Below are positions 3,001-26,312 of a stretch of DNA of 42,767 nt, in pieces. This DNA comes from Erysipelotrichaceae bacterium (GTDB taxonomy: Bacteria; Bacillota_I; Bacilli_A; Erysipelotrichales; Erysipelotrichaceae): the NCBI GenBank assembly GCA_015058875.1, contig SVBN01000024.1:1-42767 (forward strand), written 5' to 3'. Made by a program: the position numbers and the translations under genes. Under the pieces are notes generated by a model. That model did no database searches. It was not told the DNA's origin and saw only the letters and a list, made by a program, of their open reading frames with translations. Numbering within the stretch: position 1 is the first letter of the stretch; each line of letters opens with the position of its first letter.

Positions 3001-6000
3001 CAATCCGCTTACCACGGCGGCGCACAGAAACCAGGGCATCCTGATCGGAGGCGACGGGTTCGCGGACGGTGAAGGAGTCAATATTACCCTGAGCGGAAGC
3101 CGGATTATCCCGGGAACTTCAAAGAATACATTCGAATGGACGATGGCTGAAGGAACACTGGCGTCCAACTATGAAATCACGGCAGTGTATGGCGACCTGA
3201 GCGTACTGAGCAGGAATGCGGAGGACCGCTATCTGGCTGTGATTGAAGCCTCCGGCGGGGAAGCGGTTTACGATGGCGAAGAACATACGGTACAGGGTCT
3301 GGTCAGCGATTCGTTTGTGCTGAACGGACGGACCTATACCATCTCGGGCATCAGTGCTTCCGCATCCGGAACACATGCCGGAACATATGTCTCCGTACCG
3401 CAGGGAACCGCAGTGATTACGGATGAAGACGGAGAGGATGTCACCTCTGAATTCAACGTCGTGATAAAAGAAGGCACGCTGAATATTGCACCGAGAAACG
3501 TCACATTCACTTCCGCGTCACTGGAGAAGGAATATGACGGCATGCCGCTGCAGAGCGGAAATGTCGTGATTTCCGGAATGGGACTGGCAGGAAACGACGA
3601 TGTGATGTTTGAGGTCACCGGAAGCCAGACACTCGCGGGCTCTTCGGCGAATGCATTCACATGGATTGCCGGAGAGGGTACGGATCTTGCCGATTATGTC
3701 ATCACGCCGGTATACGGACGTCTGACTGTGACGGACAGGGAAAAACAGTTCGAAACCACGGTAAAAGCCACCGGCGGGACAGTCCTGTACGACGGCAGGC
3801 AGCACAGTGCCGGCGGTCTTGAAGGTCTGAAGTTCAGCCAGAACGGAATCTCCTACACGATTACCGGACTGAGCGCATCGGCTTCGGGTATGGATGCCGG
3901 AACCTATCCGGTGATCGTCAGCGGAACGCCTGTGATCCGGGATTCTGCCGGAAATGATGTCACGAAGCAGTTCGCGGTGCATTTCGAAAACAGCGAGCTG
4001 GTGATCCGTCCGAGAGCGGTCGTCATGACATCCGCATCCGCATCGGCGGAATACAACGGAAATCTGCTGAGAAAAGATCAGGTATCCATCAGCGGCGACG
4101 GCTTCGCAGGCGGTGAAGGCGCATCCTATGTATTCACCGGCGGACAGAGAACGGTCGGCGTATCGGAGAATACATTCGGATATGTGCTGAAAGACGGTAC
4201 ATCAGCTTCCAACTACAGCATCACGGTGCAGAACGGTACGCTTTCCGTTGTCAGCCGTGACACGAAATATACGGTTACCGTGACCGCAAACAGCGGAAGC
4301 GGCAAATACAACGGCATGTCGCAGACAGTCAGCGGCCTGCGTGAACAGTCATTCGTGATCGATGGAAACAGGTATTATCTGAGCGGAATGAGTGCGGAAG
4401 TTTCCGCGGTTCATGCCGGCAGATACACCGTGCCTGTCACAGGAACGGCAATGATCACCGATGAACAGGGCAATAATGTGACGGAACAGTTCGCGGTTCT
4501 GACCGAGAGCGGCACGCTGGAAATCACGAAGCGCAGCCTGGTGCTGACATCCATGAATGCCGCAAAGATGTATGACGGCAGACCGCTGCATACGAAGAAT
4601 GAACCGGATCAGGGTGTCCGGATCTCCGGCGACGGACTTGCGGGAAGCGATACGATTGTCTTTGAAGCAACCGGATCCAGAACCGTAACCGGTGCTTCGG
4701 AGAATACATTCACTTACCGTCTGAACGGTACGCCGGGCGATTATACGGTTACCGAGGTATACGGGCAGCTGGAGGTCACCGACCGTCAGACGCTGTATGA
4801 AATCGATGCCAGAGCCCGCAGCGATGCATTCGCCTATGACGGAAAGGCCCATACGCTCGGCGGATTTGAAACACTGAAGTTTGAGGTGGACGGCTCTTCC
4901 TATACGCTCAGCGGAATTACCGCATCTGCCCGCGGGCAGGATGCCGGAACATATCCGGTCAGAATCAGCGGAACACCGGCTGTACTGGACGCGGAAGGAA
5001 ATGACGTCAGCGGACAGTTCCATGTCAACCTGATTGACGGTGAGATGAAGATCACACCGAGAACGGTTGTCCTGACATCTGCGGACGGCGAAAAGGAATA
5101 TGACGGAAGCGCGCTGCAGAACAGTGAAGTTGCTGTTTCCGGCGAAGGCTTCGCGGAAGGCGAAGGCGCATCCTTCCATGTCACCGGTTCGCAGACCGTT
5201 GCCGGCAGCTCTGAGAATACATTTACGTATACGCTGAATGACAATACAAAGGCGGATAACTACCGGATTGAAATGCATTACGGAACACTGAATGTGCTGA
5301 ACCGGGCTGCGCAGTATCAGCTGACGGTCATGGCAAACAGTGCCAGAGTACGTTATGACGGCACGGAGCATACCGCCGGCGGACTGTTTGAAGATACATA
5401 TATTGTGGAAGATCACAGCTATACAGTTTCCGGTCTGGAAGCGGAAGTGAAGGCAGTGCATGCCGGAACCTGCAGCATTCCGGTGACCGGTACGGCTAAA
5501 GTGACCGATGAAGAAGGCAATGATGTCACGGAGCAGTTTGCGGTAAGAACAGTTCCGGGAACACTCGTGATCGAGCCGAGATATGTCACGCTGCGGTCGG
5601 TATCGCTGGAAAAGACCTATGACGGCGATGCGCTGACGGCAGCGGACGAAGAGAATCAGGGTATCGTGATTGAAGGCGACGGATTTGCCGGAAATGACGG
5701 TGTGACAATCACCCTGAGCGGAACCAGAACGCTGACCGGCGAATCGGACAATACCTTCACGTATGCATTCAATGAAGGAACGCTGGAAAGCGACTATGTC
5801 ATTGCGGCCCGGTACGGCAAACTGAAGATCACCGGAAGACCGGCAGAACAGCTGTACCAGGTTCATATCACGGCACAGAGCGGAGATGCGGTCTATGACG
5901 GCAGCGAACACAGAGTCTCCGGTCTGAACGGGACGGAAGTGCTGTTCAACGGCCACAGATATACCGTGACCGGACTGAGCGCCCAGGCTTCGGGTACCCA

Positions 6001-9000
6001 TGCCGGAACATATGCTTCGGAAATCACCGGTGAAGCGCATGTGCTGAACGGTGCCGGAGAAGATGTGACGGATCAGTTCCTGATTACCGGTGAAGGCGGA
6101 ACCCTGACCATTCATCCGAGGGATGTCATCCTGACATCGTCATCCGTATCGAAGGAATATGACGGCGAACCGCTGAGAAGTCCGGATGTATCTGTTTCCG
6201 GAAGCGGATTTGTGAATGGGGAAGGCGCTTCATTTGAAGTGACCGGCAGCCAGACGGTTGTCGGCAGCTCGCCGAATACATTTACATATACGCTGAATGA
6301 AGGCACGGATCCGGATGATTACCACATCATTACGGATACCGGAACGCTGCATGTCAGAAGCCGCGATACGAAATATGAAGTGGTCCTGACAGCCGGAAGC
6401 CTGAAGGCAAAGTACGACGGCAGTGAAAAGACCGTCGATACCGTGCAGGACAGCTTCCGGATCGGAAACAATGAATACCATGTCGAGGGCATTGAGGCGC
6501 ATGCGTCCGCTGTTCATGCCGGGATCTATCCGGTCACGATCAGCGGAACGCCGAAGGTGACCGACAGTGAAGGCAACGACGTAACATCCCAGTTCATGCT
6601 GGTGATGCAGAACGGCACACTGGAAATTGAGAAGAGAAATCTGATCTTTGTGTCCGCGGATGCCGAGGCGCAGTACAGCGGTGATGAACTGAAGGCAGAC
6701 CGTGTCACAGTCGGCGGAGAGGGCTTTGCGGAAGGCGAAGGCGCATCCTTCACGGTGACCGGCAGCCGGAGCCTCCCCGGTTTCAGCAGCAATACCTTCA
6801 CCTATGAACTCAATGAAGGAACACGCGCATCCGATTACAATATCACCCTCAGAGAGGGAAGGCTGAGCATTACCAACCGTCAGGCACGCTACGCGATTGA
6901 AGTGCAGGCAAAGTCTGACAGCGTGCTCTATGACGGACAGATTCATACGCTCAGCGGTCTGGAGACGACCAGATTCGGCATCGGCAGTCAGGTTTACACC
7001 GTGACCGGACTTGAGGCACATGCATCGGCTCAGCATGCCGGTACATATGCCGTACAGGTGACCGGTACGCCGAAGGTACTGGACCGTCAGGGCAATGATG
7101 TGACGGATCAGTTCCGTGTCACATCCGCCGACGGACAGCTGACAATCCGTCAGAGAGCTCTGACGCTGCGCTCGGCGGATGATGAGGCGGTCTACACCGG
7201 CCGGCCGCTGAGAAATACAAATGTAACTGTCGGCGGCGACGGATTCGCAGGCGGAGAAGGAGCTTCCTTCCGCTTCACGGGTTCCCGCACGATCGTCGGC
7301 TCTTCGCAGAATACATTCACTTATGAACTCAACGGAAATACCAGAGCATCCGATTACAGCATCGTGACCGGATTCGGAACCCTGACTGTGACCGGCAGGC
7401 CTGAGGACGCATTGTATGAAGTGACCGTCCGCGGCGCATCCGGAAGTGCAATGTATGACGGAGGCACCCATTCCGCATACGGTATCCTGGTGAACGGAAC
7501 GGCAGCGGAAAACGGCAGTGCGGCAGCGTTTACGGCGGGTGGAAACAGCTACACGCTGGAAGGCCTCAGCGCTTCCGCGGAAGCGGTCAATGCCGGAACC
7601 GTACCGGTACCGGTATACGGAAATCCTGCGGTTTATGACAGCGAAGGCAATGATGTGACTTCGCAGTTCCTGATCCGTACGGAAAGCGGAACGCTCACGA
7701 TCTCAAAGCGTACAGTTATACTGACCTCCGGTTCCGCAAGCCATACCTATACCGGACAGCCGCTGAAGAATGAAACAATGAGCTTCGGCGGAGACGGATT
7801 TGCGTCCGGCGAAGGTGCACAGTATGTATTCCGTGCATCGAGAACCATTCCGGGCGAAACACTGAATGTATTCGATTACAAACTGAATGAGAATACTTCG
7901 GAAGGAAACTACATTATCACAAAAGAGTACGGAAAATTGACGGTTCTGAACCGTGACGCGAAGTATCTGGTAACCGTTACGGCAAAGAGCGGAGAGTATC
8001 TGTACGACGGACATGAAAAGACCGTAACCGGTCTGCTCAGCAGCGTCTTCGAGGTTGACGGCGCATATTACCGGATCTCCGGACTGAGCGCATCCGGTGA
8101 AGGAACCGGTGCCGGAGTATATCCGGTTACCGTAAGCGGAGCCGCGGTGATCACCGACAGCGAAGGCAATGACGTGACGGATCAGTTTGCCGTACAGAGC
8201 AATAACGGTACACTGACGATCCGGAAGCGCAGTCTGGTATTCACCTCCGCCAGCATCAGCGTGCCGTATGACGGCAATCCGGCAGAAGCACCGGAAGTTG
8301 AGGTGACAGGCGACGGATTCGCGGACGGCGAAGGTGCCGTATTCCATGTGAGCGGCCGCCGCACACTGCCCGGCTCGTCAGACAACACATTCACATATAC
8401 CCTGACGGAAGGGACCGATCCCGACAACTATGAGATTGAAACCGTCTTCGGAAGGATCAGTGTTACGAACCGTGAGGCACTTTACGAAATTACCCTGACG
8501 GCAAACAGCGATACCGTGCTGTATGACGGACAGGTACATGAAGTCAGCGGATTCGAAACAACGGAATTCGAAATTGACGGACATACCTATACCGTGGAAG
8601 GCATTGAGGCAGGTGTTCAGGCATCTGCGGTAGGCATTCACAATACGGAAATTACCGGTACGCCGGTTGTCCGGGACAGCGAAGGCAATGACGTGACGGA
8701 ACAGTTTGCTGTGACAGTTGAAAACGGAACACTGAACATTATCAATACCTACCTGCTCACCATCCGCTATGTGGATGAAGACGGTAATGACCTTGCCCGC
8801 CCGTATACCGGAAGGTATCAGGCAGGTGAGTCGTTCGGTCCGATCCGCTCACCGATGATTGCAGGCATGACGCCGTCGTATGAAGCGGTGGTCTCCGCCC
8901 GGACAGGCATGCCGGCAAGGGATACCGTCGTGGAAGTCATCTACACGGCCGAAACGGTTCCCGCACCGGAGATTCCGGAACCGGGACCGGAAGAGCCGGC

Positions 9001-9574
9001 ACCCGGACCTCAGGTAACACCGCCTCAGACACAGCCGTCTCCATCCCCGTCTCCTGTACCGCAGCGTATCGAAGATCCGGAATATGAACGTACCGCTGTA
9101 GTTGCGGAAGACGACAGCGGCGGCGTAGTACTGATGGATATTGCCGAGGATGCAATACCTCTGGCGCCCGCACCGGCGGGGTACTGGGGACTGATCAACC
9201 TGATCAGTGCAATCGCAACGGTGATCCTCGGACTCGGCATGATCATCATGAACTTCTTCCGCAGAAAAGAAGATGAGGAAGAAGAGGACGAGGAAGCCGT
9301 GACGGAAGAGGAACGTGAAATCGAGGAAGAGCAGGAGAAAGAAGACAGACACAACTCACGCAGTGCGAAACTGCTGAGCATTCTTGCGACAATCATTTCA
9401 CCGGTCATCTTCTTCCTGACCGAAGACATGACAAAGACCATGCGTCTGACGGACCGCTGGACATTCATCATGCTGGTGGTGCTTGTCATTCAGATTATCC
9501 TGGTCATCTGGATCTTCCGGATTCAGGGAGATGATGAGGAGGAAGAGGAAGAAGATCAGCTTCAGAATGCCTGA
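2..9574 (+). CDS. Giant repetitive surface protein, 3' part (5' end outside window)
   Basis: The reading frame is already open at base 2 and in register with the repeat pattern, so the gene starts upstream; at least 3,190 residues are visible. The ectodomain is built from Ig-like MBG/YDG-type repeats recognisable by recurring YDG, YG..DP, AGTY and EGNDVT..F motifs. A MucBP-like domain follows at about residues 2910-2977 (counted from base 23; it begins YLLTIRYVDEDGN). Then come a Pro/Glu-rich stretch (about 2980-3010) and three hydrophobic helices (about 3054-3076, 3116-3135, 3146-3165) separated by very acidic charged loops. There is no LPXTG motif, so anchoring is probably by the C-terminal membrane helices. 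A likely role is adhesion or a long stalk; this is inferred from the repeat families, and the N-terminal binding head is not in view. A hairpin terminator follows the stop codon. Confidence 0.9.
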   Translation, partial: SIRDAGTVRYIVRAENPNYITAQAEGELTVTRKAITVQTMNSGKTYGEPDPQLRAAAEGVAEGDEITYTVSREAGEDAGTYAISAEGAAVQGSYEISYSGAEFTIVPSGVLSVHAGDVTAVYDGQPHSISASAGIAEGTVIEYSTDGETWDVNSPVLTDIGEMTVQIRAVNRNYDTAHTQAVLRVLPKKAAISARNSGKTYGDDDPALTASADGVLEADMAGLNYAVSREAGETAGTYKISVSGDARQGNYEIEYVPGVFTIAKADGIDLRAEGYDGVYDGQSHSVRAEASAEGTEFLYSLDQGVTWSSDVPSITDYGRQEVLIRAENPNYNTASVSVILNISRRKAEVKARNAEKTYGASDPELTADVSGTVGSDRVAYTLSRTAGEHAGSYTVAVSAEAVQGNYEVVTVPAVFTIRPAAGLTVSAEGYEGVYDGEFHTLRAETNIPDGTVLTYSTDGAVYSSVMPSVRNAGEMHVNVRAENPDYVTAQTSVILRVTPRRAVVRALDAEKVYGQADLAFEAEEEGILEGDRISYVLSRKPGEDAGTYAIEIYGEQLQGNYETEFHNGTLTVLPSAALTITAAGYEGIYDGNEHAASASASVNERTVISWSTDDGATWSETVPSITGAGELNVSVKAENPNYETVTAETTLKVTPKAAVITARNASKVYGTEDPQLEADIEGILEKDSGSVTYEITRDSGENTGNYVIRVSGNDGTGNYAISCVPAVFTITKGSFAVSAVSAEKTYDGERITGGTASEIPEGTTLSWSTDEGETWSTEIPSLLHAGSLSYSLRAENDNYNIAYASGSLTVSPRVIILRSASAQKMYDGSPLVNRNVSTEGEFAGGEGVTWTFSGTRTAPGTSQNVFTYAFNEGTDPADYSISVSYGSLTVTNRDAKYGITVRGADASVLYDGTEQKAEGLAASVFEIEGHRYTLSGMKAEASAVNAGTYPVVVSGTPVIRDEEGNDVTEQFAISTEPGSFVIRKRQVVLTSESAGRTYDGNPLTTAAHRNQGILIGGDGFADGEGVNITLSGSRIIPGTSKNTFEWTMAEGTLASNYEITAVYGDLSVLSRNAEDRYLAVIEASGGEAVYDGEEHTVQGLVSDSFVLNGRTYTISGISASASGTHAGTYVSVPQGTAVITDEDGEDVTSEFNVVIKEGTLNIAPRNVTFTSASLEKEYDGMPLQSGNVVISGMGLAGNDDVMFEVTGSQTLAGSSANAFTWIAGEGTDLADYVITPVYGRLTVTDREKQFETTVKATGGTVLYDGRQHSAGGLEGLKFSQNGISYTITGLSASASGMDAGTYPVIVSGTPVIRDSAGNDVTKQFAVHFENSELVIRPRAVVMTSASASAEYNGNLLRKDQVSISGDGFAGGEGASYVFTGGQRTVGVSENTFGYVLKDGTSASNYSITVQNGTLSVVSRDTKYTVTVTANSGSGKYNGMSQTVSGLREQSFVIDGNRYYLSGMSAEVSAVHAGRYTVPVTGTAMITDEQGNNVTEQFAVLTESGTLEITKRSLVLTSMNAAKMYDGRPLHTKNEPDQGVRISGDGLAGSDTIVFEATGSRTVTGASENTFTYRLNGTPGDYTVTEVYGQLEVTDRQTLYEIDARARSDAFAYDGKAHTLGGFETLKFEVDGSSYTLSGITASARGQDAGTYPVRISGTPAVLDAEGNDVSGQFHVNLIDGEMKITPRTVVLTSADGEKEYDGSALQNSEVAVSGEGFAEGEGASFHVTGSQTVAGSSENTFTYTLNDNTKADNYRIEMHYGTLNVLNRAAQYQLTVMANSARVRYDGTEHTAGGLFEDTYIVEDHSYTVSGLEAEVKAVHAGTCSIPVTGTAKVTDEEGNDVTEQFAVRTVPGTLVIEPRYVTLRSVSLEKTYDGDALTAADEENQGIVIEGDGFAGNDGVTITLSGTRTLTGESDNTFTYAFNEGTLESDYVIAARYGKLKITGRPAEQLYQVHITAQSGDAVYDGSEHRVSGLNGTEVLFNGHRYTVTGLSAQASGTHAGTYASEITGEAHVLNGAGEDVTDQFLITGEGGTLTIHPRDVILTSSSVSKEYDGEPLRSPDVSVSGSGFVNGEGASFEVTGSQTVVGSSPNTFTYTLNEGTDPDDYHIITDTGTLHVRSRDTKYEVVLTAGSLKAKYDGSEKTVDTVQDSFRIGNNEYHVEGIEAHASAVHAGIYPVTISGTPKVTDSEGNDVTSQFMLVMQNGTLEIEKRNLIFVSADAEAQYSGDELKADRVTVGGEGFAEGEGASFTVTGSRSLPGFSSNTFTYELNEGTRASDYNITLREGRLSITNRQARYAIEVQAKSDSVLYDGQIHTLSGLETTRFGIGSQVYTVTGLEAHASAQHAGTYAVQVTGTPKVLDRQGNDVTDQFRVTSADGQLTIRQRALTLRSADDEAVYTGRPLRNTNVTVGGDGFAGGEGASFRFTGSRTIVGSSQNTFTYELNGNTRASDYSIVTGFGTLTVTGRPEDALYEVTVRGASGSAMYDGGTHSAYGILVNGTAAENGSAAAFTAGGNSYTLEGLSASAEAVNAGTVPVPVYGNPAVYDSEGNDVTSQFLIRTESGTLTISKRTVILTSGSASHTYTGQPLKNETMSFGGDGFASGEGAQYVFRASRTIPGETLNVFDYKLNENTSEGNYIITKEYGKLTVLNRDAKYLVTVTAKSGEYLYDGHEKTVTGLLSSVFEVDGAYYRISGLSASGEGTGAGVYPVTVSGAAVITDSEGNDVTDQFAVQSNNGTLTIRKRSLVFTSASISVPYDGNPAEAPEVEVTGDGFADGEGAVFHVSGRRTLPGSSDNTFTYTLTEGTDPDNYEIETVFGRISVTNREALYEITLTANSDTVLYDGQVHEVSGFETTEFEIDGHTYTVEGIEAGVQASAVGIHNTEITGTPVVRDSEGNDVTEQFAVTVENGTLNIINTYLLTIRYVDEDGNDLARPYTGRYQAGESFGPIRSPMIAGMTPSYEAVVSARTGMPARDTVVEVIYTAETVPAPEIPEPGPEEPAPGPQVTPPQTQPSPSPSPVPQRIEDPEYERTAVVAEDDSGGVVLMDIAEDAIPLAPAPAGYWGLINLISAIATVILGLGMIIMNFFRRKEDEEEEDEEAVTEEEREIEEEQEKEDRHNSRSAKLLSILATIISPVIFFLTEDMTKTMRLTDRWTFIMLVVLVIQIILVIWIFRIQGDDEEEEEEDQLQNA
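98..2440 (+). repeat. Five tandem class A repeats (MBG plus YDG pair) in the surface protein
   Basis: Units start at about 98, 566, 1037, 1502 and 1967, a period of 465-474 bp (about 156 residues). Each unit pairs a half with the core K.YG..DP...A and a half with the core YDG..H followed by STD...W and RAENPNY. A further partial half lies at the window edge, so the array continues upstream. Units share spacing and key residues but are clearly diverged at the nucleotide level, which points to old duplication without recent homogenisation. Confidence 0.85.
2441..8746 (+). repeat. Twelve tandem class B repeats in the surface protein
   Basis: Units start at 2441, 2957, 3497, 4016, 4535, 5063, 5582, 6122, 6638, 7157, 7712 and 8231; most are 516-540 bp (about 173 residues). 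Each has a first half with the core YDG.PL, GDGFA.GEGA, TGS.T..GSS.NTFTY, and a second half with YDG..H..SGL, AGTYPV.VSGTP and EGNDVT.QF. Unit 10 (7157-7711, 555 bp) is longer because of an Ala/Gly-rich insertion near 7490-7540. Class B is a different design from the class A array that precedes it. Confidence 0.85.
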
Positions 9575-18344: not shown

Positions 18345-18755
18345 TCAGATCAGAATTCCGCTGAGATGATCGATTTCGTGCTGGATAATCTGGGCGGTGT
18401 AGCCGGTATAAGTCTGTTTTTTCCTGTGAAAGGAAAGATCATCATATTCCACCGTAATGGTTGTGTACCGTGTGGTTTTTCTTGTGCCGCTTAAGGACAG
18501 ACATCCTTCCTCCGTTTCATACGGGTCCTTCTTTACGGTGATGACCGGATTCAGCATGCACATGACGGCCGGGCCCGTGGAAAAAACGATGATCCTTTTG
18601 GATACACCGATCATATTTGCGGCCATGCCGACGCATTCATGGCGGTGCGCTTTCAGCGTATCGATCAGGTCCATGGCATGCGGCAGATCTTCTTTCTGCG
18701 CTTTGGATGAGGGTATGGAAAGGAAGAATGTGTCATGTATAATCTCTCTGTTCAT
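18345..18755 (-). CDS. def: Peptide deformylase (short clostridial type)
   Basis: 136 residues from the ATG at 18755, which AGGAGA precedes; an earlier in-frame start would add 25 unlike residues. It removes the N-terminal formyl group from nascent proteins. Motif 1 reads G-M-A-A-N-M rather than the classic G-x-A-A-x-Q, motif 2 is E-G-C-L-S-L (metal Cys), and motif 3 is Q-H-E-I-D-H (metal His pair and catalytic Glu). The protein ends soon after motif 3, as in the ~136-residue deformylases common in Clostridia and Erysipelotrichia, often found beside a second, longer PDF elsewhere. It is not beside fmt or priA, so it may be an accessory copy. Confidence 0.88.
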   Translation of the reverse strand: MNREIIHDTFFLSIPSSKAQKEDLPHAMDLIDTLKAHRHECVGMAANMIGVSKRIIVFSTGPAVMCMLNPVITVKKDPYETEEGCLSLSGTRKTTRYTTITVEYDDLSFHRKKQTYTGYTAQIIQHEIDHLSGILI

Positions 18756-18828
18756 AGCTGCTTCTCCTGTACCCGGTAAATACGGGTTTGTTACATATCT
18801 CCCGGAAAAAATCACGTCCGGAAAACGC

Positions 18829-18886
18829 ATTTTGTGAGAATACTCTCAAAATCGTGCTTTCTTTCGAGGTGGACCGGAAGTACAAT
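18829..18886 (+). promoter_or_regulatory. Inverted repeat and -10 upstream of the sugar operon
   Basis: An imperfect dyad with TGAGA / TCTCA core arms and flanking A/T (18829-18852) lies between the divergent deformylase and fructokinase genes. TACAAT at 18881-18886 is a good -10, but the -35 is poor, which fits a promoter that needs an activator. GAGGAGG at 18926-18933 precedes the fructokinase start. No clear ScrR-type site is seen here. Confidence 0.4.
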
Positions 18887-18940: not shown

Positions 18941-19933
18941 ATGAGTACAGCCAAACTGCCGTGCAATGTGGATGTGGTCGCATTGGGCGAACTTTTAATT
19001 GACTTCACGGAAAACGGCGTTTCCGAACAGGGAAACCCGCTGCTGGAAGCGAATCCCGGAGGAGCCCCCTGCAATGTGCTGAGCATGCTTACCCGCTTCG
19101 GGAAAACTGTCGGCTTTATCGGCAAGGTCGGAAACGACGGATTCGGAAAGATGCTGAAAGGCGCCATCGCCGAGCAGGGCATCCTGACAGAAGGACTGTG
19201 CTTTGATAATGATGTGCATACGACACTGGCTCTTGTCCTGAAGCTGGAAAACGGCGACCGTGACTTCGCATTCTACCGCAAGCCGGGAGCGGATATGAAT
19301 CTGCGTCCGGAAGAAGTTGATACGGATCTGATCCGCAGTGCGAGACTGTTCCATTTCGGATCTCTGTCCCTGACTGACGAGCCGGTCAGAAGCGCAACAA
19401 AGAAGGCACTGGAGACAGCGGAGGACGCAGGACTGATGATCTCGTTTGACCCGAATCTCAGAGAACCGCTGTGGGAAACAATGGATCAGGCGAAGGAACA
19501 GATTGACTTCGGCATGAAGCATGCCCATGTCCTCAAGATTTCCGATAATGAAATCACCTGGTTCACGGGTAAAGAGGACTATGAGGACGGTATCCGCTAT
19601 CTGCAGGAAACCTATCCGAATCTGAAACTGATCTGCCTGTCCATGGGACCGGACGGCAGCCGTGCGTGCTTCGGCGATCTGAGAGTGGATGTTCCGGCAT
19701 TCCTGCAGGAAAAGACCATTGAGACAACCGGTGCAGGCGACACATTCTGCGCATGCATGCTGAATACGGTTCTGGATAAGGGACTGGATGATCTGAGCGA
19801 AGATGATCTCAGGGAAATGCTGACAACAGCCAATGCGGCCGCTTCTCTTGTGACAACAAAGAAAGGCGCACTGCGCGTTATGCCGCAGCTGGATGAAGTA
19901 AAGGCATTTATTGCGGAAAGGACACAGGGATAA
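18941..19933 (+). CDS. scrK: Fructokinase, PfkB family
   Basis: 330 residues from the ATG at 18941, which has an excellent GAGGAGG site; the open frame extends upstream to 18788 without a plausible start. PfkB signatures: GGAPCN near residue 43 and TGAGDTFCACM with catalytic Asp267. It phosphorylates fructose to fructose-6-phosphate with ATP in the cytoplasm. It is the first gene of the operon, and the amylosucrase-like gene starts 3 bp after its stop codon. Both enzymes then meet on fructose, the product released when a sucrose-using GH13 enzyme acts. The sugar specificity is inferred from context. Confidence 0.87.
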   Translation: MSTAKLPCNVDVVALGELLIDFTENGVSEQGNPLLEANPGGAPCNVLSMLTRFGKTVGFIGKVGNDGFGKMLKGAIAEQGILTEGLCFDNDVHTTLALVLKLENGDRDFAFYRKPGADMNLRPEEVDTDLIRSARLFHFGSLSLTDEPVRSATKKALETAEDAGLMISFDPNLREPLWETMDQAKEQIDFGMKHAHVLKISDNEITWFTGKEDYEDGIRYLQETYPNLKLICLSMGPDGSRACFGDLRVDVPAFLQEKTIETTGAGDTFCACMLNTVLDKGLDDLSEDDLREMLTTANAAASLVTTKKGALRVMPQLDEVKAFIAERTQG

Positions 19934-19936
19934 GGC

Positions 19937-22021
19937 ATGATCAGACAGGAATGGGAAAGCACGTTTAAAAAACGTCTGGAAAAGAACTACGACGAGATGA
20001 AGAGACTTTATCTCGGTCTGTACCACAATGATGAGCATGCGTTCGATTATTTCTGCACCATGCTGCATGACTATTATGAGCAGCGTCCGGAACTTCTGAA
20101 GGAATGGGATGAGGCAAGAGAAGCGGTACCGGGATGGTTCCGCGGGAATGAAATGCTTGGCATGCTGATGTATGTCAACTGCTTCGGAGGCAATCTGAAG
20201 GGCGTTGCATCGCATCTGGATTATATCAAGGAAGTCGGCGTCAACTATCTGCATCTGATGCCGCTGCTGGAAAGCCCGAAGGGAAGAAGTGACGGCGGCT
20301 ACGCTGTCTCTGATTTCCGCAAGGTACAGCCGGAACTCGGTACGATGGAAGATCTGGCTGAGCTGGCGGAAGAATGCCATACCAAGGGCATGAGCCTGTG
20401 TCTGGACTTTGTCATGAACCACACCAGTGAGGACCATGAATGGGCAAAGCGGGCAAGAGCAGGTGAGAAGGAATATCAGGACAGATACTTCTTCTATGAT
20501 GACTGGACAGTACCGAAGGAATATGAAAAGACAGTTCCGCAGGTATTCCCCCAGACTGCACCGGGCAATTTCTCCTGGAATGAAGAGACGCATAAGGTTG
20601 TCATGACAACCTTCTACCCGTACCAGTGGGACCTGAACTATGCAAATCCTGTCGTATTCAATGATATGACAGCGAATATGCTGTATCTGTGCAACCACGG
20701 CGTGGATATTATCCGCCTGGATGCGGTTCCTTATATCTGGAAAGAGCTCGGCACATCCTGCCGCAATCTGCCGGAAGTCCATACTCTGGTCAGACTGATG
20801 CGTCTGGCGTCGGAAGTTGTCTGCCCCGGCACACTGCTTCTGGGTGAAGTGGTTATGGAACCTTCCAAGGTTGTTCCGTATTTCGGAAGTCTGGAAACAC
20901 CGGAATGCCATATGCTGTACAACGTTACAACAATGGCAAGCACATGGCACACCGTTGCCACAAGAGATGTTCATCTGCTGAGACATCAGCTGGAAACCGT
21001 ATTCGCACTGCCGAAGCAGTATACATTCCTCAACTATCTGAGATGTCATGATGATATCGGATGGGGACTGGATTATGACTATCTGAAGCAGTTCGGCATG
21101 GAAGAAGTCGCACATAAGAAGTATCTGAATGACTGCCTGACAGGCAAACTGCCGGGAAGCGAAAGCAGAGGCGAACTGTACAACGATGATCCGAAACTCG
21201 GTGATGCCCGTCTGGTCGGCATGACCGCATCCCTGACCGGTATTGAAGCTGCGGATTACGAGCAGAATGAATGGAAGATGGAGCGGGCAATCGACTTCGA
21301 TGTCATGCTGCATGCATTCCTGCTCACACAGAGCGGTATTCCCGTGCTGTACAGCGGCGATGAAATCGGGCAGCTGAATGATTATACTTACCACAATGAT
21401 CCGCTGAAGGCAGAAGACAGCCGTTACCTGCACAGAGGCGATCTGAACTGGGAACATGTCGCGATGCGCAATGATCCGAACACCCGTCAGGGCAAACTGT
21501 ATCCGCGTCTGAAGCAGCTGCTTCAGATCCGTTCCAGATACGTCGTGTTTGAAAGCGATGCGGACACATGGATTGTAGAACCGTGGAATGATCATATTCT
21601 CGGCATCGGAAGATATTATGAAGGTGAAAAGCTGATTGCGCTGTTCAACTTCTCTGCCAATGAAGAGACTGCATGGATCGATGAGCAGGATGACTATGTC
21701 AATCTGCTGACCGGTGAGCCTGTCACAGCAAAGAACGTACAGATTCCTGCACAGAGCTTTGTCTGGCTGTATCATGCATTTGAAAATGCCAAGAAGAAAA
21801 GTACGCATGCACCAGTGCTGAAGCTGAAGAAGGAAAAGAAGCAGCCGGCAAAGAAGACGGAAAAGAAAGCCGCAAAACCGGCAGAGGAACCCGTAAAGAA
21901 GGCGCCTGAAGTTAAGCCGGAAGAGCTGACCGTAAGAGCTGTTATTACAAGAAAGATGCCGCTGAAAGGCGCTCCGGCAAGAAGCGAATCGCTGAGACTG
22001 AGAAGAGGAAGGAAGAGATGA
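19937..22021 (+). CDS. Amylosucrase-family GH13 enzyme with long basic C-terminal tail
   Basis: 694 residues. The alpha-helical N-terminus, (beta/alpha)8 barrel and C-terminal beta domain follow the layout of amylosucrases (GH13 subfamily 4). Family landmarks are VNYLHLMPLL, FVMNHTSEDHEWA, QWDLNYANP, VDIIRLDAVPYIWK with nucleophile Asp262, LLGEVVMEP with acid/base Glu304, and LRCHDDIGW with His371 and transition-state stabiliser Asp373. Amylosucrase splits sucrose, builds alpha-1,4-glucan and releases fructose. No signal peptide, so intracellular. Residues about 618-694 form a Lys/Ala/Pro-rich tail (AKKKSTHAP, KKTEKKAAKPAEEPVKK, LRRGRKR) not found in the classic enzyme. Alternatives are sucrose hydrolase or a sucrose-6-phosphate-active variant. 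The stop overlaps the next start (ATGA). Confidence 0.82.
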   Translation: MIRQEWESTFKKRLEKNYDEMKRLYLGLYHNDEHAFDYFCTMLHDYYEQRPELLKEWDEAREAVPGWFRGNEMLGMLMYVNCFGGNLKGVASHLDYIKEVGVNYLHLMPLLESPKGRSDGGYAVSDFRKVQPELGTMEDLAELAEECHTKGMSLCLDFVMNHTSEDHEWAKRARAGEKEYQDRYFFYDDWTVPKEYEKTVPQVFPQTAPGNFSWNEETHKVVMTTFYPYQWDLNYANPVVFNDMTANMLYLCNHGVDIIRLDAVPYIWKELGTSCRNLPEVHTLVRLMRLASEVVCPGTLLLGEVVMEPSKVVPYFGSLETPECHMLYNVTTMASTWHTVATRDVHLLRHQLETVFALPKQYTFLNYLRCHDDIGWGLDYDYLKQFGMEEVAHKKYLNDCLTGKLPGSESRGELYNDDPKLGDARLVGMTASLTGIEAADYEQNEWKMERAIDFDVMLHAFLLTQSGIPVLYSGDEIGQLNDYTYHNDPLKAEDSRYLHRGDLNWEHVAMRNDPNTRQGKLYPRLKQLLQIRSRYVVFESDADTWIVEPWNDHILGIGRYYEGEKLIALFNFSANEETAWIDEQDDYVNLLTGEPVTAKNVQIPAQSFVWLYHAFENAKKKSTHAPVLKLKKEKKQPAKKTEKKAAKPAEEPVKKAPEVKPEELTVRAVITRKMPLKGAPARSESLRLRRGRKR

Positions 22022-22842
22022 GCAGAAAACTGATCTTTCTTGATATCGACGGAACACTGACGGAAGCAGGATCCAACGTTCCTCCGCAGAGTGCACAGGA
22101 AGCTGTCAGAAGAGCCAGGGAAAAAGGTAATCTGGTCTATCTGTGCACGGGAAGAAACATGGGCATGCTGAAGCCGGTGCTGGAATACGGATTCGACGGT
22201 GTTGTAGCGCTGGGCGGCGGATATGTGCAGTGCGGGGATGAAGTGATCTATGATCATCCGATGACCCGTGAACAGTTTGAAACCGCAATGGCTGTGCTGG
22301 AAAAGAACAACGTGTTCCGTACCATTGAGGCGAAAGATGCCACATACGGCGATGAGCATCTCGGGGATTTCCTGAAGAATACATCCGGAGGCAACTCGGA
22401 GATCGAACGCTGGCGCAAGGCACTCTCGCAGAGCCTCGGAATCAGACCGATCAGTGAATATGACGGCAGAGATATCTACAAAATTGTCATCATGTGCACT
22501 TCCGCATCCCAGCTGGAAGAGCCGAGGGCTCTTCTGGAAAAGGAATTCGAATTTGCAATTCAGGATGTGGCGGCGCATAACTGTCTGAACGGGGATCTGG
22601 TCAACCGGGCGTTTGATAAGGGAAAGGGCGTGCTCAGAGTCTGTGAGCATCTCGGCATCCCGGTGGAAGACACCTACGGATTCGGAGATTCCATGAATGA
22701 TCTGGAAATGATCGAAACCGTGGCAACAAGCGTATGCATGGAAAACGGATCGGAAAAGCTGAAGGAGTTAAGCGATATCATTGCTCCTTCCGTGACCGAT
22801 GACGGTCTTTACAAAGTATTTGAACAGCTTGAGCTGTTCTGA
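22018..22842 (+). CDS. HAD-superfamily (Cof-type) sugar phosphatase
   Basis: 274 residues. Motif 1 is D9-I-D11-G-T; a threonine in LCTGRN serves as motif 2; a Lys near 200 (FDKGKG) is motif 3; and GFGDSMNDLEM is motif 4. The large insertion between motifs 2 and 3 is the IIB (Cof) cap. It removes phosphate from small phosphorylated sugars. Its start overlaps the amylosucrase stop codon and the PTS permease follows, so sucrose-6-phosphate (the PTS product) is an attractive substrate; that is inference. Sequence alone cannot exclude a general sugar-phosphate overflow phosphatase. A candidate promoter for the PTS gene overlaps its 3' end. Confidence 0.85.
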   Translation: MSRKLIFLDIDGTLTEAGSNVPPQSAQEAVRRAREKGNLVYLCTGRNMGMLKPVLEYGFDGVVALGGGYVQCGDEVIYDHPMTREQFETAMAVLEKNNVFRTIEAKDATYGDEHLGDFLKNTSGGNSEIERWRKALSQSLGIRPISEYDGRDIYKIVIMCTSASQLEEPRALLEKEFEFAIQDVAAHNCLNGDLVNRAFDKGKGVLRVCEHLGIPVEDTYGFGDSMNDLEMIETVATSVCMENGSEKLKELSDIIAPSVTDDGLYKVFEQLELF

Positions 22843-22874
22843 TAAACTGCAGGCTTCATACCAAACGTTTACAA
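22820..22874 (+). promoter_or_regulatory. Candidate internal promoter with cre-like site before the PTS gene
   Basis: TTGAAC (22820-22825), 17 bp, TAAACT (22843-22848), then a cre-like palindrome centred on AAACGTTT (22860-22874). On the reverse strand it reads TTGTAAACGTTTGGT, one mismatch from the Gram-positive cre consensus. A site just downstream of the predicted start would block transcription when CcpA (or a LacI-type sucrose repressor) binds. Confidence 0.5.
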
Positions 22875-22914
22875 TGCAGCACCCGATAAAAAACGGGGAG
22901 GAAAGGGGATTAAA

Positions 22915-24855
22915 ATGGCATTGGATTACAGAAAATGCGCTGAAGAGATCGCTGCCAATATCGGCGGCGGCGAGAACGTCGTAAGCGCGGCACACTGTGC
23001 AACCAGACTGCGTCTTGTCATCGCTGACAACGGCAAGGTCAACAAAGAAGCACTGGACAACGTCGAAGGTGTTCAGGGCATGTTCGAATCAAACGGTCAG
23101 CTCCAGCTGATCATCGGCACCGGTACCGTCAACAAGGTATTTGACGAGTTCATCGCTGTTACAGGCGTACAGGCCGGTACAAAGGATGATGTCAAGGCTG
23201 CCGCAGCTGCCAAACAGCCGCTCTGGAAACAGATGCTGAAGACAATCGGCGACGTATTCGTACCGATTCTTCCGGCAATCGTAGCTTCCGGTCTGATGAT
23301 GGGTCTTGTTGAAGCACTTGCAAAGATTCCGGGACTGGGATTCGGCGGTTCCGACTGGTTCGCATTCCTCGATACAGTCGCAAACACAGCATTCGCTTAT
23401 CTGCCGGTTATCGTAGCTGTTTCTGCCGCAAGAGTATTCGGCGGAAATATCTTCCTCGGCGCAGTCATCGGTCTTCTGATGATTCACTCCGCATTCCTGA
23501 ACGGATGGAATGTTGCCAATACCGAAGCAATCAATGCATTCTTCGGTGTAACTGACGGCATCATTCCGAAGTGGCATCTGCTTGGCAATATTATTACCAT
23601 CCAGAGATCCGGTTATCAGGGGCACGTCATTCCGGTTATCATTGCCGTATTCATTATGTGCAAAGTCGAAAAGTGGCTGCACCAGCATGTACCGGAAATG
23701 ATCGACCTGTTCGTTACACCGCTGACAACTGTTCTGGTTACAGCTCTTGCGACACTGTGGATCGTCGGCCCGATCTTCTCCACACTGGAAACATGGGTTC
23801 TTGCAGGTGCAAAGATTCTCGTACGCAATCCGCTCGGTGCATGCGCAATGGGTGCGCTGTATCCGGCTACCGTCGTTATGGGTCTGCATCATATGTACAA
23901 CGTTATCGAAGCAGGTATGCTTGCTGAGAGCGGACTGAACACCTGGATGCCGATCGCTTCCGCAGCAAACTTCGCACAGTTCGGTGCCTGCCTTGCTGTA
24001 GGTCTGAAGGTTAAGAATGCCAAGACAAAGGCAGTCGCGGTTCCTTCTTCCCTGTCCGCAGCTCTCGGTATCACAGAACCGGCTATCTTCGGTGTCAACA
24101 TGCGTTTCTTCAAGCCGTTCGTTGCCGGTATGATCGGCGGAGCAGTCGGTTCACTCGTAGCAGCTCTGTTCGGATTCGGCGCTACAGCATACGGCGTAAC
24201 CGGTATCCCTGGCTATCTGACAGTTTCCAACCCGCTGCAGTATACAATCGTTCTGGCAATTGCCGGCGGTATTGCATTCGTTCTGACAACCATGTTCTGG
24301 CATGAGGAAGTTCCTGAGACAAAGGCAGCTCCTGCACCGGCACCTGCCGAAGAACCTGCACCTGCACCGGCACCTGTCGCAGCAGCTCCTGCAGCAGCTG
24401 ATACAGCCGTTCCGACAGAAGTCGCAATGACAGCTGAAAAGACAGTTGAAAGCACAATTCTGCAGCCTGTCGCAGGTAAGCTGATCCCTGCATCCGAAAT
24501 TCCTGATCCGGTATTTGCCGGCGAAGCAATGGGACCGAGCGTCGGTATCCAGCCGGAAGGTGAATTCGTATATGCACCGTTCGACGGTACAGTTGCAATG
24601 CTGTTCCCGACAAAGCACGCTGTCGGTCTGATGTCCGACTCCGGTGTTGAAATCCTGATCCATGTCGGTGTTGACACCGTATCCATGGACGGCGACGGAT
24701 TCGAAGCATTTGTTGAACAGGGCCAGGCTGTCAAGGCAGGCGACAAGCTGCTGCACTTCGACCGTGCAAAGATCGCAGCTGCGAACCATCCTGATACAGT
24801 CATCGTTGTTGTTACCAACAGCTTCGATCTGACAAACGTCAAGAAAGCAGTTTAA
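22915..24855 (+). CDS. scrA: Sucrose-type PTS permease, EIIBCA
   Basis: 646 residues. EIIB is at about 1-85, with the phosphorylated Cys28 in AAHCATRLR. EIIC is at about 105-460, multi-helix, with family motifs GYQGHVIPV, GLHHMYNVIEAGM and ALGITEPAIFGVN. An Ala/Pro-rich hinge (about 470-505) precedes EIIA of the glucose type, with His568 in KHAVGL and the phosphorylated His583 in HVGVDTV. The EIIC motifs belong to the glucose/glucoside superfamily and look closest to the sucrose/trehalose branch. It imports and phosphorylates the sugar at the membrane. GGGGAGGAAAGGGG supplies a very strong RBS. The fructokinase and amylosucrase-like neighbours favour sucrose; trehalose or another glucoside remains possible. 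Confidence 0.88.
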   Translation: MALDYRKCAEEIAANIGGGENVVSAAHCATRLRLVIADNGKVNKEALDNVEGVQGMFESNGQLQLIIGTGTVNKVFDEFIAVTGVQAGTKDDVKAAAAAKQPLWKQMLKTIGDVFVPILPAIVASGLMMGLVEALAKIPGLGFGGSDWFAFLDTVANTAFAYLPVIVAVSAARVFGGNIFLGAVIGLLMIHSAFLNGWNVANTEAINAFFGVTDGIIPKWHLLGNIITIQRSGYQGHVIPVIIAVFIMCKVEKWLHQHVPEMIDLFVTPLTTVLVTALATLWIVGPIFSTLETWVLAGAKILVRNPLGACAMGALYPATVVMGLHHMYNVIEAGMLAESGLNTWMPIASAANFAQFGACLAVGLKVKNAKTKAVAVPSSLSAALGITEPAIFGVNMRFFKPFVAGMIGGAVGSLVAALFGFGATAYGVTGIPGYLTVSNPLQYTIVLAIAGGIAFVLTTMFWHEEVPETKAAPAPAPAEEPAPAPAPVAAAPAAADTAVPTEVAMTAEKTVESTILQPVAGKLIPASEIPDPVFAGEAMGPSVGIQPEGEFVYAPFDGTVAMLFPTKHAVGLMSDSGVEILIHVGVDTVSMDGDGFEAFVEQGQAVKAGDKLLHFDRAKIAAANHPDTVIVVVTNSFDLTNVKKAV

Positions 24856-24858
24856 TCC

Positions 24859-25116
24859 ATGATTGAACTTCAGATTACCGTAAAGGATCCTCAGGGAATC
24901 CATGCACGTCCGGCAGGCAGAATCACTTCCGCACTGCTTGGCTATGAGAGCTTTGTAACACTCTGGAAGGGTGAGAAAGACTATGATGTCAAAAAGCTTC
25001 TCAGCTTCATGGGTTCGGAACTGAAATGCGGAGAACAGGTCGTGATCCGTGTGGAAGGACCAGATGAGGAAAAATGCGCTGAAGCTGTAAAGCAGCTGTT
25101 TGACGAAAATCTGTAA
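24859..25116 (+). CDS. HPr-like phosphocarrier with His15 but Lys46
   Basis: 85 residues, the full HPr length. The phosphorylated His15 sits in the canonical G-I-H-A-R-P-A-G. Position 46, the serine that HPr kinase/phosphorylase modifies for CcpA-dependent catabolite control, is Lys (V-K-K-L-L-S, residues 44-49). The start is 3 bp after the PTS stop codon and lacks a separate strong RBS, so translation is probably coupled. Inference: a dedicated phosphate donor for the adjacent EIIBCA, insensitive to HPr kinase, as opposed to the housekeeping ptsH product. It is last in the operon; a terminator follows. Confidence 0.85.
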   Translation: MIELQITVKDPQGIHARPAGRITSALLGYESFVTLWKGEKDYDVKKLLSFMGSELKCGEQVVIRVEGPDEEKCAEAVKQLFDENL

Positions 25117-25123
25117 TGCAGAG

Positions 25124-25153
25124 GGCATGTGCGATTGGCACATGCCTTTCGTT
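25124..25153 (+). terminator. Terminator of the sugar operon
   Basis: GGCATGTGC / GCACATGCC perfect 9-bp stem with a GATTG loop, then TTTCGTTT. Confidence 0.85.
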
Positions 25154-25218
25154 TACCCGGTTGCATGTCGTCCGGCATGGGTGAAATGCAGTATAATACA
25201 CCGGAAGAGGATATGAAT

Positions 25219-26043
25219 ATGAGTGAAGTGAAGCTGCTGGTATTGGATCTGGACGGAACATTGCTGAATGGGAAAAAGCAGATCAGTGAACGGAACAGGG
25301 AAGTTTTATTGAAAGCACAGAATGAAAAAAGCCTGCGGATCGCGATCGGATCGGGCAGGGATTATGACTATGCGAAAAAAGTATCTGAACCGCTGGAACT
25401 GGACAGCCATAAGGGCTTCCTCATCTGCAACAACGGGCAGAAGGTATATGACTGTGAGACACAGACAATGAATGAGATCCGCAGGATTACCCATACCGGC
25501 GGAAGGATTGCCATGTCTTATGCCGAACTGAACAGTCTGGAAATCAGAGGATCCATCGGTACCGAAAAGTATTTCCATAACTGTCATGAAGGAAAGGGAA
25601 AGAACGGGGAAGAAGATCTCGGATACAATCCGGATACCGGATTCTTCGATACGGATCAGGATTTTGACAAGATTGTTATCTTTACATCTGAGAAATACAG
25701 TCTGGATGATGATCACCGGGTGGTGGAAGAACTGAGAGGACTTCTCGGAGAACATGATGATGTAACGCTGGTAGCACCGCATGTAGTGGATCTTGTGGCG
25801 AAGGGCGTGGACAAAACTTCCGGAATCGAATGGATTGCAGAGCATTATGGCTTCGAGAAGGAAGAAATCCTGGTGATGGGTGACGGGGAGAATGATCTTC
25901 CTGCCGCATTGAAATATCCGTTCTCTGCTATGGCCAACAGCATGGATTCCGTTCTGAAGGCGGCTTCCCGGGTGACGCTCTCCAATGAGGAAGACGGTGT
26001 TGCATATGAAGTGGAACGTTCCGTACTGAAAACTGCGGAGTGA
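25219..26043 (+). CDS. HAD-superfamily (Cof-type) phosphatase
   Basis: 274 residues from the ATG at 25219; GGAAGAGG is eight bases before it and only two before the alternative ATG at 25213. D10-L-D12-G-T is motif 1, IGSGRD carries motif 2, a Lys in VAKGVDKTSG is motif 3 and MGDGENDLPA is motif 4; a IIB cap lies between. Cytoplasmic sugar- or nucleotide-phosphate phosphatase of unknown substrate. It is separated from the sucrose operon by a terminator and has a TATAAT at 25192-25197 with a poor -35, so it is probably transcribed on its own or with the small gene after it. Confidence 0.85.
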   Translation: MSEVKLLVLDLDGTLLNGKKQISERNREVLLKAQNEKSLRIAIGSGRDYDYAKKVSEPLELDSHKGFLICNNGQKVYDCETQTMNEIRRITHTGGRIAMSYAELNSLEIRGSIGTEKYFHNCHEGKGKNGEEDLGYNPDTGFFDTDQDFDKIVIFTSEKYSLDDDHRVVEELRGLLGEHDDVTLVAPHVVDLVAKGVDKTSGIEWIAEHYGFEKEEILVMGDGENDLPAALKYPFSAMANSMDSVLKAASRVTLSNEEDGVAYEVERSVLKTAE

Positions 26044-26081: not shown

Positions 26082-26312
26082 ATGGACGCAAAACTGGAAC
26101 AGAAAGCAGCGGAAGTCATTCAGAAAATTCAGAATGATCCCGAACTGCAGAAAGAATTCGCGGCAGCTCCGGCAAAGACAATTGAAAAACTCGCCGGCAT
26201 CAACATTCCCGACTTCATGGAACCGATGATTGAAAAGGTCATCCGTGAACAGATTGCCAAAGGTGCGGATGCCGCAGATCCGATGGAACTGGTCCGCAAG
26301 TTCCTGAAATAG
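26082..26312 (+). CDS. Small helical protein (76 aa) of unknown function
   Basis: The start at 26082 is preceded by a weak AGG; the in-frame ATG at 26040 would overlap the upstream stop region. The sequence is almost all amphipathic helix, with the pattern DPELQKEF...P...IEKLAGINIPDF, then a Lys/Glu helix. This pattern (D-P-x-L..F..x-P..x-I-E.L.G..L/I-P) recalls small uncharacterised proteins common in Clostridia and the leader fold of Nif11/NHLP peptides. There is no Gly-Gly cleavage site, Cys-rich core or modification enzyme nearby, so a peptide-natural-product role is not supported. A strong terminator shows it is transcribed as the end of a unit. Confidence 0.7.
   Translation: MDAKLEQKAAEVIQKIQNDPELQKEFAAAPAKTIEKLAGINIPDFMEPMIEKVIREQIAKGADAADPMELVRKFLK

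Follow-up and report, generated by a model that had tools for sequence, protein, structure and literature searches.

Gene content of the locus

The window analysed here is a stretch of 42,767 nucleotides from an Erysipelotrichaceae bacterium (assembly GCA_015058875.1, contig SVBN01000024.1, positions 1 to 42,767 of the forward strand), and our subject is a set of five genes at 18941-25116 encoding a PfkB-family kinase, a GH13 enzyme of amylosucrase type, a Cof-type HAD phosphatase, a permease of the phosphoenolpyruvate (PEP)-dependent phosphotransferase system (PTS) and an HPr-like phosphocarrier. All five lie on the + strand with intergenic gaps of 3, -4, 72 and 3 bp, bearing out the tightly spaced operon described in a first-pass annotation of the same DNA, and all five genes named there were confirmed. 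At first sight a PTS does not suit an amylosucrase, as the former delivers phosphorylated sucrose and the latter needs free sucrose; in the account we favour, which we hold to be moderately probable, the phosphatase would join the two into a route of sucrose uptake and storage. The features are as follows:

18941..19933, + strand: PfkB-family sugar kinase, probable fructokinase (PF00294, 173.5 bits)
19937..22021, + strand: GH13_4-type amylosucrase-like enzyme of 694 residues (best PDB matches, conserved active-site residues)
22018..22842, + strand: Cof-type HAD-IIB phosphatase, proposed sucrose-6-phosphate phosphatase (PF08282, 171 bits; TIGR00099, 148.3 bits)
22915..24855, + strand: PTS EIIBCA permease of the sucrose/beta-glucoside class (EIIB, EIIC and EIIA domains)
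24859..25116, + strand: HPr-like phosphocarrier (PF00381, 71.3 bits)
25121..25154, + strand: terminator-like hairpin and T-rich tail 3' of the HPr gene (core hairpin 25124-25146, then TTTCGTTT)

Conserved residues of the encoded proteins

Amylosucrases are the nearest kin of the GH13 product across its full catalytic length: each of the 18 best PDB matches, at 431-479 bits and spanning approximately residues 4-579, bears the name amylosucrase or sucrose hydrolase, and the next group, trehalose synthase, scores 200 bits. We take the subfamily to be GH13_4; sucrose phosphorylase and sucrose-6F-phosphate phosphorylase (GH13_18) were rejected on weak scores, the sucrose phosphorylase model reaching just 73.5 bits. 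Twelve catalytic and -1/+1 subsite residues (D119, Y122, H162, F226, R260, D262, E304, H371, D372, D373, R425 and R496), among them the nucleophile D262, the acid/base E304 and the pairs D119/R496 (D144/R509 in the amylosucrase NpAS) and D373/R425 (NpAS D394/R446), are identical in 91 of 91 close kin and in three solved amylosucrase chains, and are also present in 14 more distant amylosucrases bar one gap at R496. The -1 subsite list, which includes an Asp-Arg salt-bridge pair, is that given for amylosucrases in an excerpt of PMC6949346. Other positions are private to the close kin. An invariant His486 in the loop preceding Arg496, the pair Val305-Val306 and a mostly kept Tyr-Pro-Tyr at 227-229 are absent from the three solved chains, and Trp337 is clade-only in comparison with the 14 distant relatives. 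The positions that diverge most between GH13 copies accompanied by both PTS and HAD and copies with neither include no listed active-site residue, so that these residues were dismissed as the separator of the two groups. At its C-terminus the enzyme also carries some 75 residues rich in Lys and Ala (21800-22021), a tail that is shorter or absent in 19 other aligned sequences.

The phosphatase exceeds the TIGR00099 cut-off of 137 bits, and its catalytic residues D9, D11, K201, D224 and D228 are invariant in 44 of 44 aligned orthologs (at least 97% in each column of a 56-row alignment, two rows of which are duplicates). Its nearest solved kin are 3fzq, 2pq0 and the sugar phosphatase BT4131. The sucrose-6F-phosphate phosphatase model TIGR01482 scores 67.4 bits against a cut-off of 107.15, placing the protein outside that family, and PF05116 passes its Pfam cut-off (32.7 versus 20.3) across 56 residues only, far behind PF08282.

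The EIIBCA permease is complete, with phosphorylation-site motifs in all three domains (Cys28 in EIIB, GITEP in EIIC, His568 and His583 in EIIA). The HPr keeps His15 and has Lys at the position of Ser46; at related loci His15 is present in 23 of 23 HPrs and position 46 is Lys in 17 and Ser in four, and another HPr in the window's genome retains the Ser46 motif. An HPr without Ser46 would be blind to HPr kinase, and the operon HPr may therefore lie outside HPr-kinase control. For the kinase, the fructokinase named by the first-pass annotation agrees with the PfkB family and with the best NCBIfam model (fructokinase NF006957), but the score of 199 bits is far under the equivalog cut-off of 450.

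Conservation of the gene set

Genomes of the window's family were sampled (195 for the GH13 scan, 190 for the HAD scan). Close relatives of the GH13 enzyme (55-79%) occur in 14 of the 195 genomes at 15 places including the window, and more distant ones (37-42%) in 15. The order kinase-GH13-HAD-PTS, whose conservation the first-pass annotation had proposed to examine, is found at 10 of the 15 close-kin places, that is, in the window and in nine further genomes of the 195, and is not a chance arrangement. Among these nine operons one contig ends inside the PTS gene and one GH13 gene carries an in-frame stop; one further close-kin place is truncated by a contig end inside GH13. An ortholog of the HAD (57-68%) is present in exactly the ten operon genomes of 190, the next matches reaching at most 36%, and kinase relatives (57-71%) lie beside or near the close-kin GH13 genes of the family. 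HPr follows the set in Sharpea and Kandleria; none was seen beside the nine other family operons in the neighbourhoods examined.

A scan of named genomes was confined to the best 80 loci of a longer list, which were picked by GH13 similarity and so give no measure of frequency. The GH13-HAD-PTS core is found again among them, and LacI, HPr and PTS enzyme I frequently accompany it; the order is GH13-(LacI)-HAD-PTS-(HPr-enzyme I) in Sharpea, Kandleria, Clostridium vitabionis and rumen Lachnospiraceae (named carriers: Sharpea porci, Kandleria vitulina, Clostridium vitabionis and Lachnospiraceae ACC2). At 45 distinct operon loci besides the window, enzyme I lies near 24, LacI near 23 and GH32, the family of the sucrose-6-phosphate hydrolases, near nine, the last pointing to sucrose as the operon's sugar. 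In many relatives (loci L079, L087, L090 and others) the amylosucrase and HAD genes have a private PTS next to them, HPr and enzyme I included, and frequently LacI as well. Two loci with close-kin GH13, L080 (3337-3945) and L146 (8199-8696), have a free-standing EIIA-like gene with enzyme I (and HPr in L146) and no full EIIBCA.

Co-occurrence of HAD, PTS and GH13

A search from the HAD side covered 397 sampled genomes from the family of G204, the Lachnospiraceae bacterium that carries L090. The phosphatase was found in 27 of them, and all 27 also hold a close GH13 relative, against 105 of 397 overall (hypergeometric p 1.6e-17, ignoring kinship; three of the 27 were already known GH13 carriers). 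Twenty of the 29 HAD places in this sample were fetched. The orthologous PTS gene adjoins the HAD gene in 19 of these regions and a more distant EIIBCA does so in the remaining one, while GH13 lies in the same stretch in 16 (one cut by a contig end) in at least three gene orders; at L213, L217 and L218 the HAD adjoins the PTS with GH13 outside the stretch. That gene order shifts while the partners stay is good evidence of joint HAD-PTS-GH13 function.

The same association is seen from the GH13 side. Of the 60 distinct close-kin loci whose downstream sequence runs to 6 kb or more, 33 have both HAD and PTS, four have HAD only, four PTS only and 19 neither (Fisher 2.6e-8; 33/4/3/20 when L146, with its EIIA domain only, is moved to the last class). 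On a quick GH13 tree, seven well-supported independent PTS contrasts were matched by a concordant HAD difference in 5.4, an opposite one in 0.2 and none in 1.5 (averages), with a median p of 0.06. The 14 more distant amylosucrases have neither HAD nor PTS alongside, and ABC importer genes lie near 11 of them, so that at these loci free sugar would be brought in with no HAD present. A strict form of the association, with HAD as companion of every PTS-GH13 pair, was rejected on account of six EIIBCA-GH13 loci that lack it.

A proposed route from imported sucrose to glucan

From gene content, conservation, co-occurrence and catalytic residues, all of which are observed, we infer the substrates, direction of flux and regulation of the operon. 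EIIBCA, served by its own HPr, would import sucrose as sucrose-6-phosphate, phosphorylated on the glucose moiety; the Cof-type HAD, a putative dedicated PTS-linked phosphatase, would strip this phosphate and give free sucrose; the GH13_4 enzyme would then move the glucose onto the end of an alpha-1,4-glucan (glycogen), freeing fructose that the PfkB kinase would convert to fructose-6-phosphate. Glycogen phosphorylase could later return the glucose as glucose-1-phosphate with no ATP. By textbook stoichiometry each sucrose would take one PEP and one ATP, as much as by the GH32 route: the phosphate lost to the HAD would finally cost nothing because glycogen phosphorylase recovers a glucose phosphate ester from inorganic phosphate. 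GH32 may be a competitor for sucrose-6-phosphate in those genomes that have it. Synthesis of alpha-1,4-glucan is the predicted activity of the GH13 enzyme, which might instead be a hydrolase or isomerase of sucrose within the same subfamily.

This is in essence the chain drawn in the first-pass annotation, which gains comparative support from the ties of HAD to PTS and GH13, from the absence of HAD in the more distant, mostly ABC-linked relatives, from operon genomes without GH32 and from the residues for free sucrose, but loses some to the GH32 genes elsewhere in the genome. No GH32 gene lies in the operon, in agreement with that annotation and unlike an Scr-type operon, in which GH32 accompanies the PTS, and none was matched on the rest of the window's contig. 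Some carriers seem to be without GH32 altogether, there being no match in nine of 36 operon genomes, including strains C. vitabionis YH-T4B42 and Lachnospiraceae ACC2; two more (G172 and Sharpea porci) have only a weak or fragmentary match, and as many operon genomes are drafts these absences are provisional. All six genomes that combine EIIBCA with GH13 in the absence of HAD have GH32, which fits a fallback role, although this was not predicted beforehand; none was found in the genome of L080.

Free sucrose may reach some relatives by another way. GH36 alpha-galactosidase genes lie near three of the 19 loci with neither HAD nor PTS (L051, which also has a galactokinase, L100 and L112) and near L083 and L126, which keep HAD and lack the PTS. 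This suggests a raffinose-to-glucan route at GH36-flanked amylosucrases, with raffinose-type sugars as the source of free sucrose; most of the 19 loci show no GH36 neighbour. All 19 genomes tested, of which 14 carry the operon, have the glycogen synthase and phosphorylase families (GlgA and GlgP), which led us to reject the idea that the GH13 enzyme substitutes for a missing GlgA.

Several observations weigh against the proposed route. The window's genome has six clear GH32 genes and one weak match elsewhere, so that the absence noted by the first-pass annotation does not extend beyond the contig, and GH32 occurs in 27 of the 36 HAD-bearing operon genomes; a GH32 that accounts for sucrose use from another locus, named in that annotation as one of the findings that would overturn its chain, is thus partly present, in this genome and near the nine related operon loci mentioned above. 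The seven GH32 neighbourhoods of the window's genome gave no tblastn match to the operon PTS. L070, one of the seven, closes with an open frame that looks, by eye, like a PTS EIIC of a different kind. With GlgA present, the GH13 enzyme is not the only likely glucan maker. In the Lachnospiraceae-family sample, 78 of the 105 GH13-bearing genomes lack the HAD, so that GH13 does not need it. No HAD ortholog was found in the genomes of the six loci with GH13 and an adjacent EIIBCA (L085, L088, L104, L117, L095 and L107, the last two truncated by a contig end) or in those of L080 and L146, all eight loci being from metagenome assemblies, and no such PTS was found in the genomes of four loci where GH13 is linked to HAD (L083, L126, L134 and L141).

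The proteins themselves add to these reservations. Among characterised proteins the HAD is nearest to the BT4131 kind of sugar phosphatase, which we take to be broad, and the data fit a specific sucrose-6-phosphate phosphatase and a broad phosphatase that happens to lie here equally well. In the GH13 enzyme, two sites tied to polymer and acceptor binding in amylosucrases are changed: the position of NpAS Phe417 is Tyr396, with Tyr at this site in 53 of the 91 close kin and Phe in the other 38, and that of NpAS Arg415 is Lys in 91 of 91; the position of NpAS Ile330 is Val. An excerpt of PMC6949346 reports Phe417 as conserved in microbial amylosucrases and links it to polymerisation. The name amylosucrase-like was kept because this is a helper residue, not a catalytic one.

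Alternative explanations

The GH32 genes, found in 36 of 47 genomes searched with the window's included and carried at nine of the 45 operon loci, raise the possibility that sucrose-6-phosphate is split by GH32 elsewhere, that the HAD is a relief valve against sugar-phosphate stress whenever PTS import runs ahead of catabolism, and that the GH13 enzyme is fed otherwise. A sugar phosphatase among the nearest solved HADs and the adjacency of HAD to PTS even where GH13 lies outside the stretch (L213, L217 and L218) are consistent with such a valve. We nevertheless consider it unlikely, given the nine operon genomes with no GH32 match and the finding that, in the genomes searched, the HAD was not seen without GH13 (27 of 27 and 10 of 10 genomes), a partnership not required of a general valve. 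The permease could instead carry another alpha-glucoside (trehalose, turanose or similar) that the operon then handles. The sucrose EIIBC model TIGR01996 is its best match, as the first-pass label of a sucrose-type PTS would have it, but the score of 491.7 bits falls short of the cut-off (559.3) and barely exceeds the 484.2 bits of the beta-glucoside IIABC model, a further point against the proposed route. PTS specificity can also be plastic; in one study a trehalose PTS reportedly moved low levels of sucrose. Yet the trehalose model lies far behind (353.3 bits), the gene partner is fructokinase-like, GH32 accompanies nine operons and amylosucrase uses sucrose, so that another sugar seems to us very unlikely.

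The first-pass annotation also allowed that the GH13 enzyme might take sucrose-6-phosphate directly, as a hydrolase (giving glucose-6-phosphate and fructose) or as a transferase, with the HAD acting elsewhere or trimming a phosphorylated glucan. EIIBCA-GH13 pairs without HAD at six loci leave room for this, and the private invariant residues of the clade (His486, Val305-Val306, Trp337 and Tyr-Pro-Tyr 227-229) could bear on it, His486 leaving slight room for action on the phosphorylated sugar. However, the -1 residues on the list, the Asp-Arg salt-bridge pair among them, are those of the free-sucrose enzymes in the excerpt of PMC6949346, the foremost differences between copies with PTS and HAD and copies with neither spare the listed active-site residues, and some non-PTS kin lie near alpha-galactosidase genes and thus near a possible supply of free sucrose from raffinose. 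Direct use is therefore disfavoured, and we judge it quite unlikely. That the clade moves glucose-6-phosphate units onto a glucan to build a phosphorylated storage polymer, with the HAD trimming the glucan or sugar phosphates, would be exceedingly improbable.

Relation to known systems

Classical scr/sac operons combine a sucrose PTS (ScrA), a GH32 sucrose-6-phosphate hydrolase (ScrB) and a fructokinase (ScrK). The window operon resembles them in its sucrose-class PTS and fructokinase and differs in having HAD and GH13 in place of GH32; some relatives hold all. In the maltose route of Enterococcus faecalis, the step after the maltose-6'-phosphate phosphatase MapP is maltose phosphorylase. According to an excerpt of PMC3737437, the PTS-imported maltose phosphate is dephosphorylated by MapP, whose gene lies beside the EII gene. 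The likeness to this malT-MapP pair, as far as the excerpt describes it, is that an imported disaccharide phosphate would be dephosphorylated in the cell for an enzyme acting on the free disaccharide. The differences are that the sugar here would be sucrose, that the final enzyme is amylosucrase-like, and that MapP belongs to the endonuclease/exonuclease/phosphatase family, whereas the operon phosphatase is a HAD of the Hydrolase_3 family (PF08282) and would thus work like MapP without being a member of its family.

Two further systems share parts of the set. In the spsA-sppA-frkA-amsA operon of Synechococcus PCC7002, a phosphatase, a fructokinase and an amylosucrase likewise stand together, there in sucrose synthesis (excerpt of PMC11046441). 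Sucrose phosphate is made inside the cell in that organism, whereas the window operon includes a PTS and an HPr and its HAD is of the Cof class. In Faecalibacterium prausnitzii a cluster of GH32, ABC, LacI, fructokinase and amylosucrase genes has been described, and introducing the amylosucrase gene yielded a recombinant strain that degraded sucrose (excerpt of PMC8894670). There too fructokinase adjoins amylosucrase for sucrose/fructan use, but the importer is of the ABC type, for free sugar, and the excerpt names no PTS and no phosphatase. In searches of the open-licence PMC literature, judged by titles listed and by the excerpts of PMC8894670 and PMC11046441, no description of a PTS version of the amylosucrase route was found; a Sharpea rumen paper reports PTS enrichment and does not mention amylosucrase (PMC5069950).

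If the proposed route is true, a dedicated phosphatase linking a PTS to an amylosucrase would extend the MapP principle to a second case and would give a Cof HAD a concrete activity, that of a sucrose-6-phosphate phosphatase in uptake. It would also account for the way in which rumen and gut Bacillota (Sharpea, Kandleria and Lachnospiraceae) might store one half of every sucrose as glycogen without spending more ATP, and a sucrose PTS without GH32 need not mean a broken pathway.

Flanking features

The following genes flank the set:

18345-18830, upstream, in opposite orientation to the five genes: peptide deformylase
25213-26043, beyond the hairpin and outside the conserved set: second Cof HAD

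The hairpin directly 3' of the HPr gene has a 9-bp GC-rich stem (25124-25146) and is followed by TTTCGTTT; a consensus terminator scan did not report it, and it was spotted by eye. The fold of 25112-25162 has a dG of -23.6 kcal/mol (z -3.89), and 0 of 200 shuffles were equally stable. Because the hairpin sits between HPr and the second Cof HAD, the latter is probably on a separate transcript. It was set aside as the pathway phosphatase because it lies past this hairpin and relatives gave no close match to it next to their operons. Just past it, and likewise outside the conserved set, a gene at 26082-26312 (+ strand) encodes a small protein with weak likeness to NHLP-type leaders of ribosomally synthesised and post-translationally modified peptides (22.8 bits, cut-off 50.9). 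At the other end of the window, an open frame of more than 3,180 residues (2-9574, + strand), open at the window start, has repeated MBG_2 domains and a stretch resembling cell-surface antigen I/II, and is likely a surface protein.

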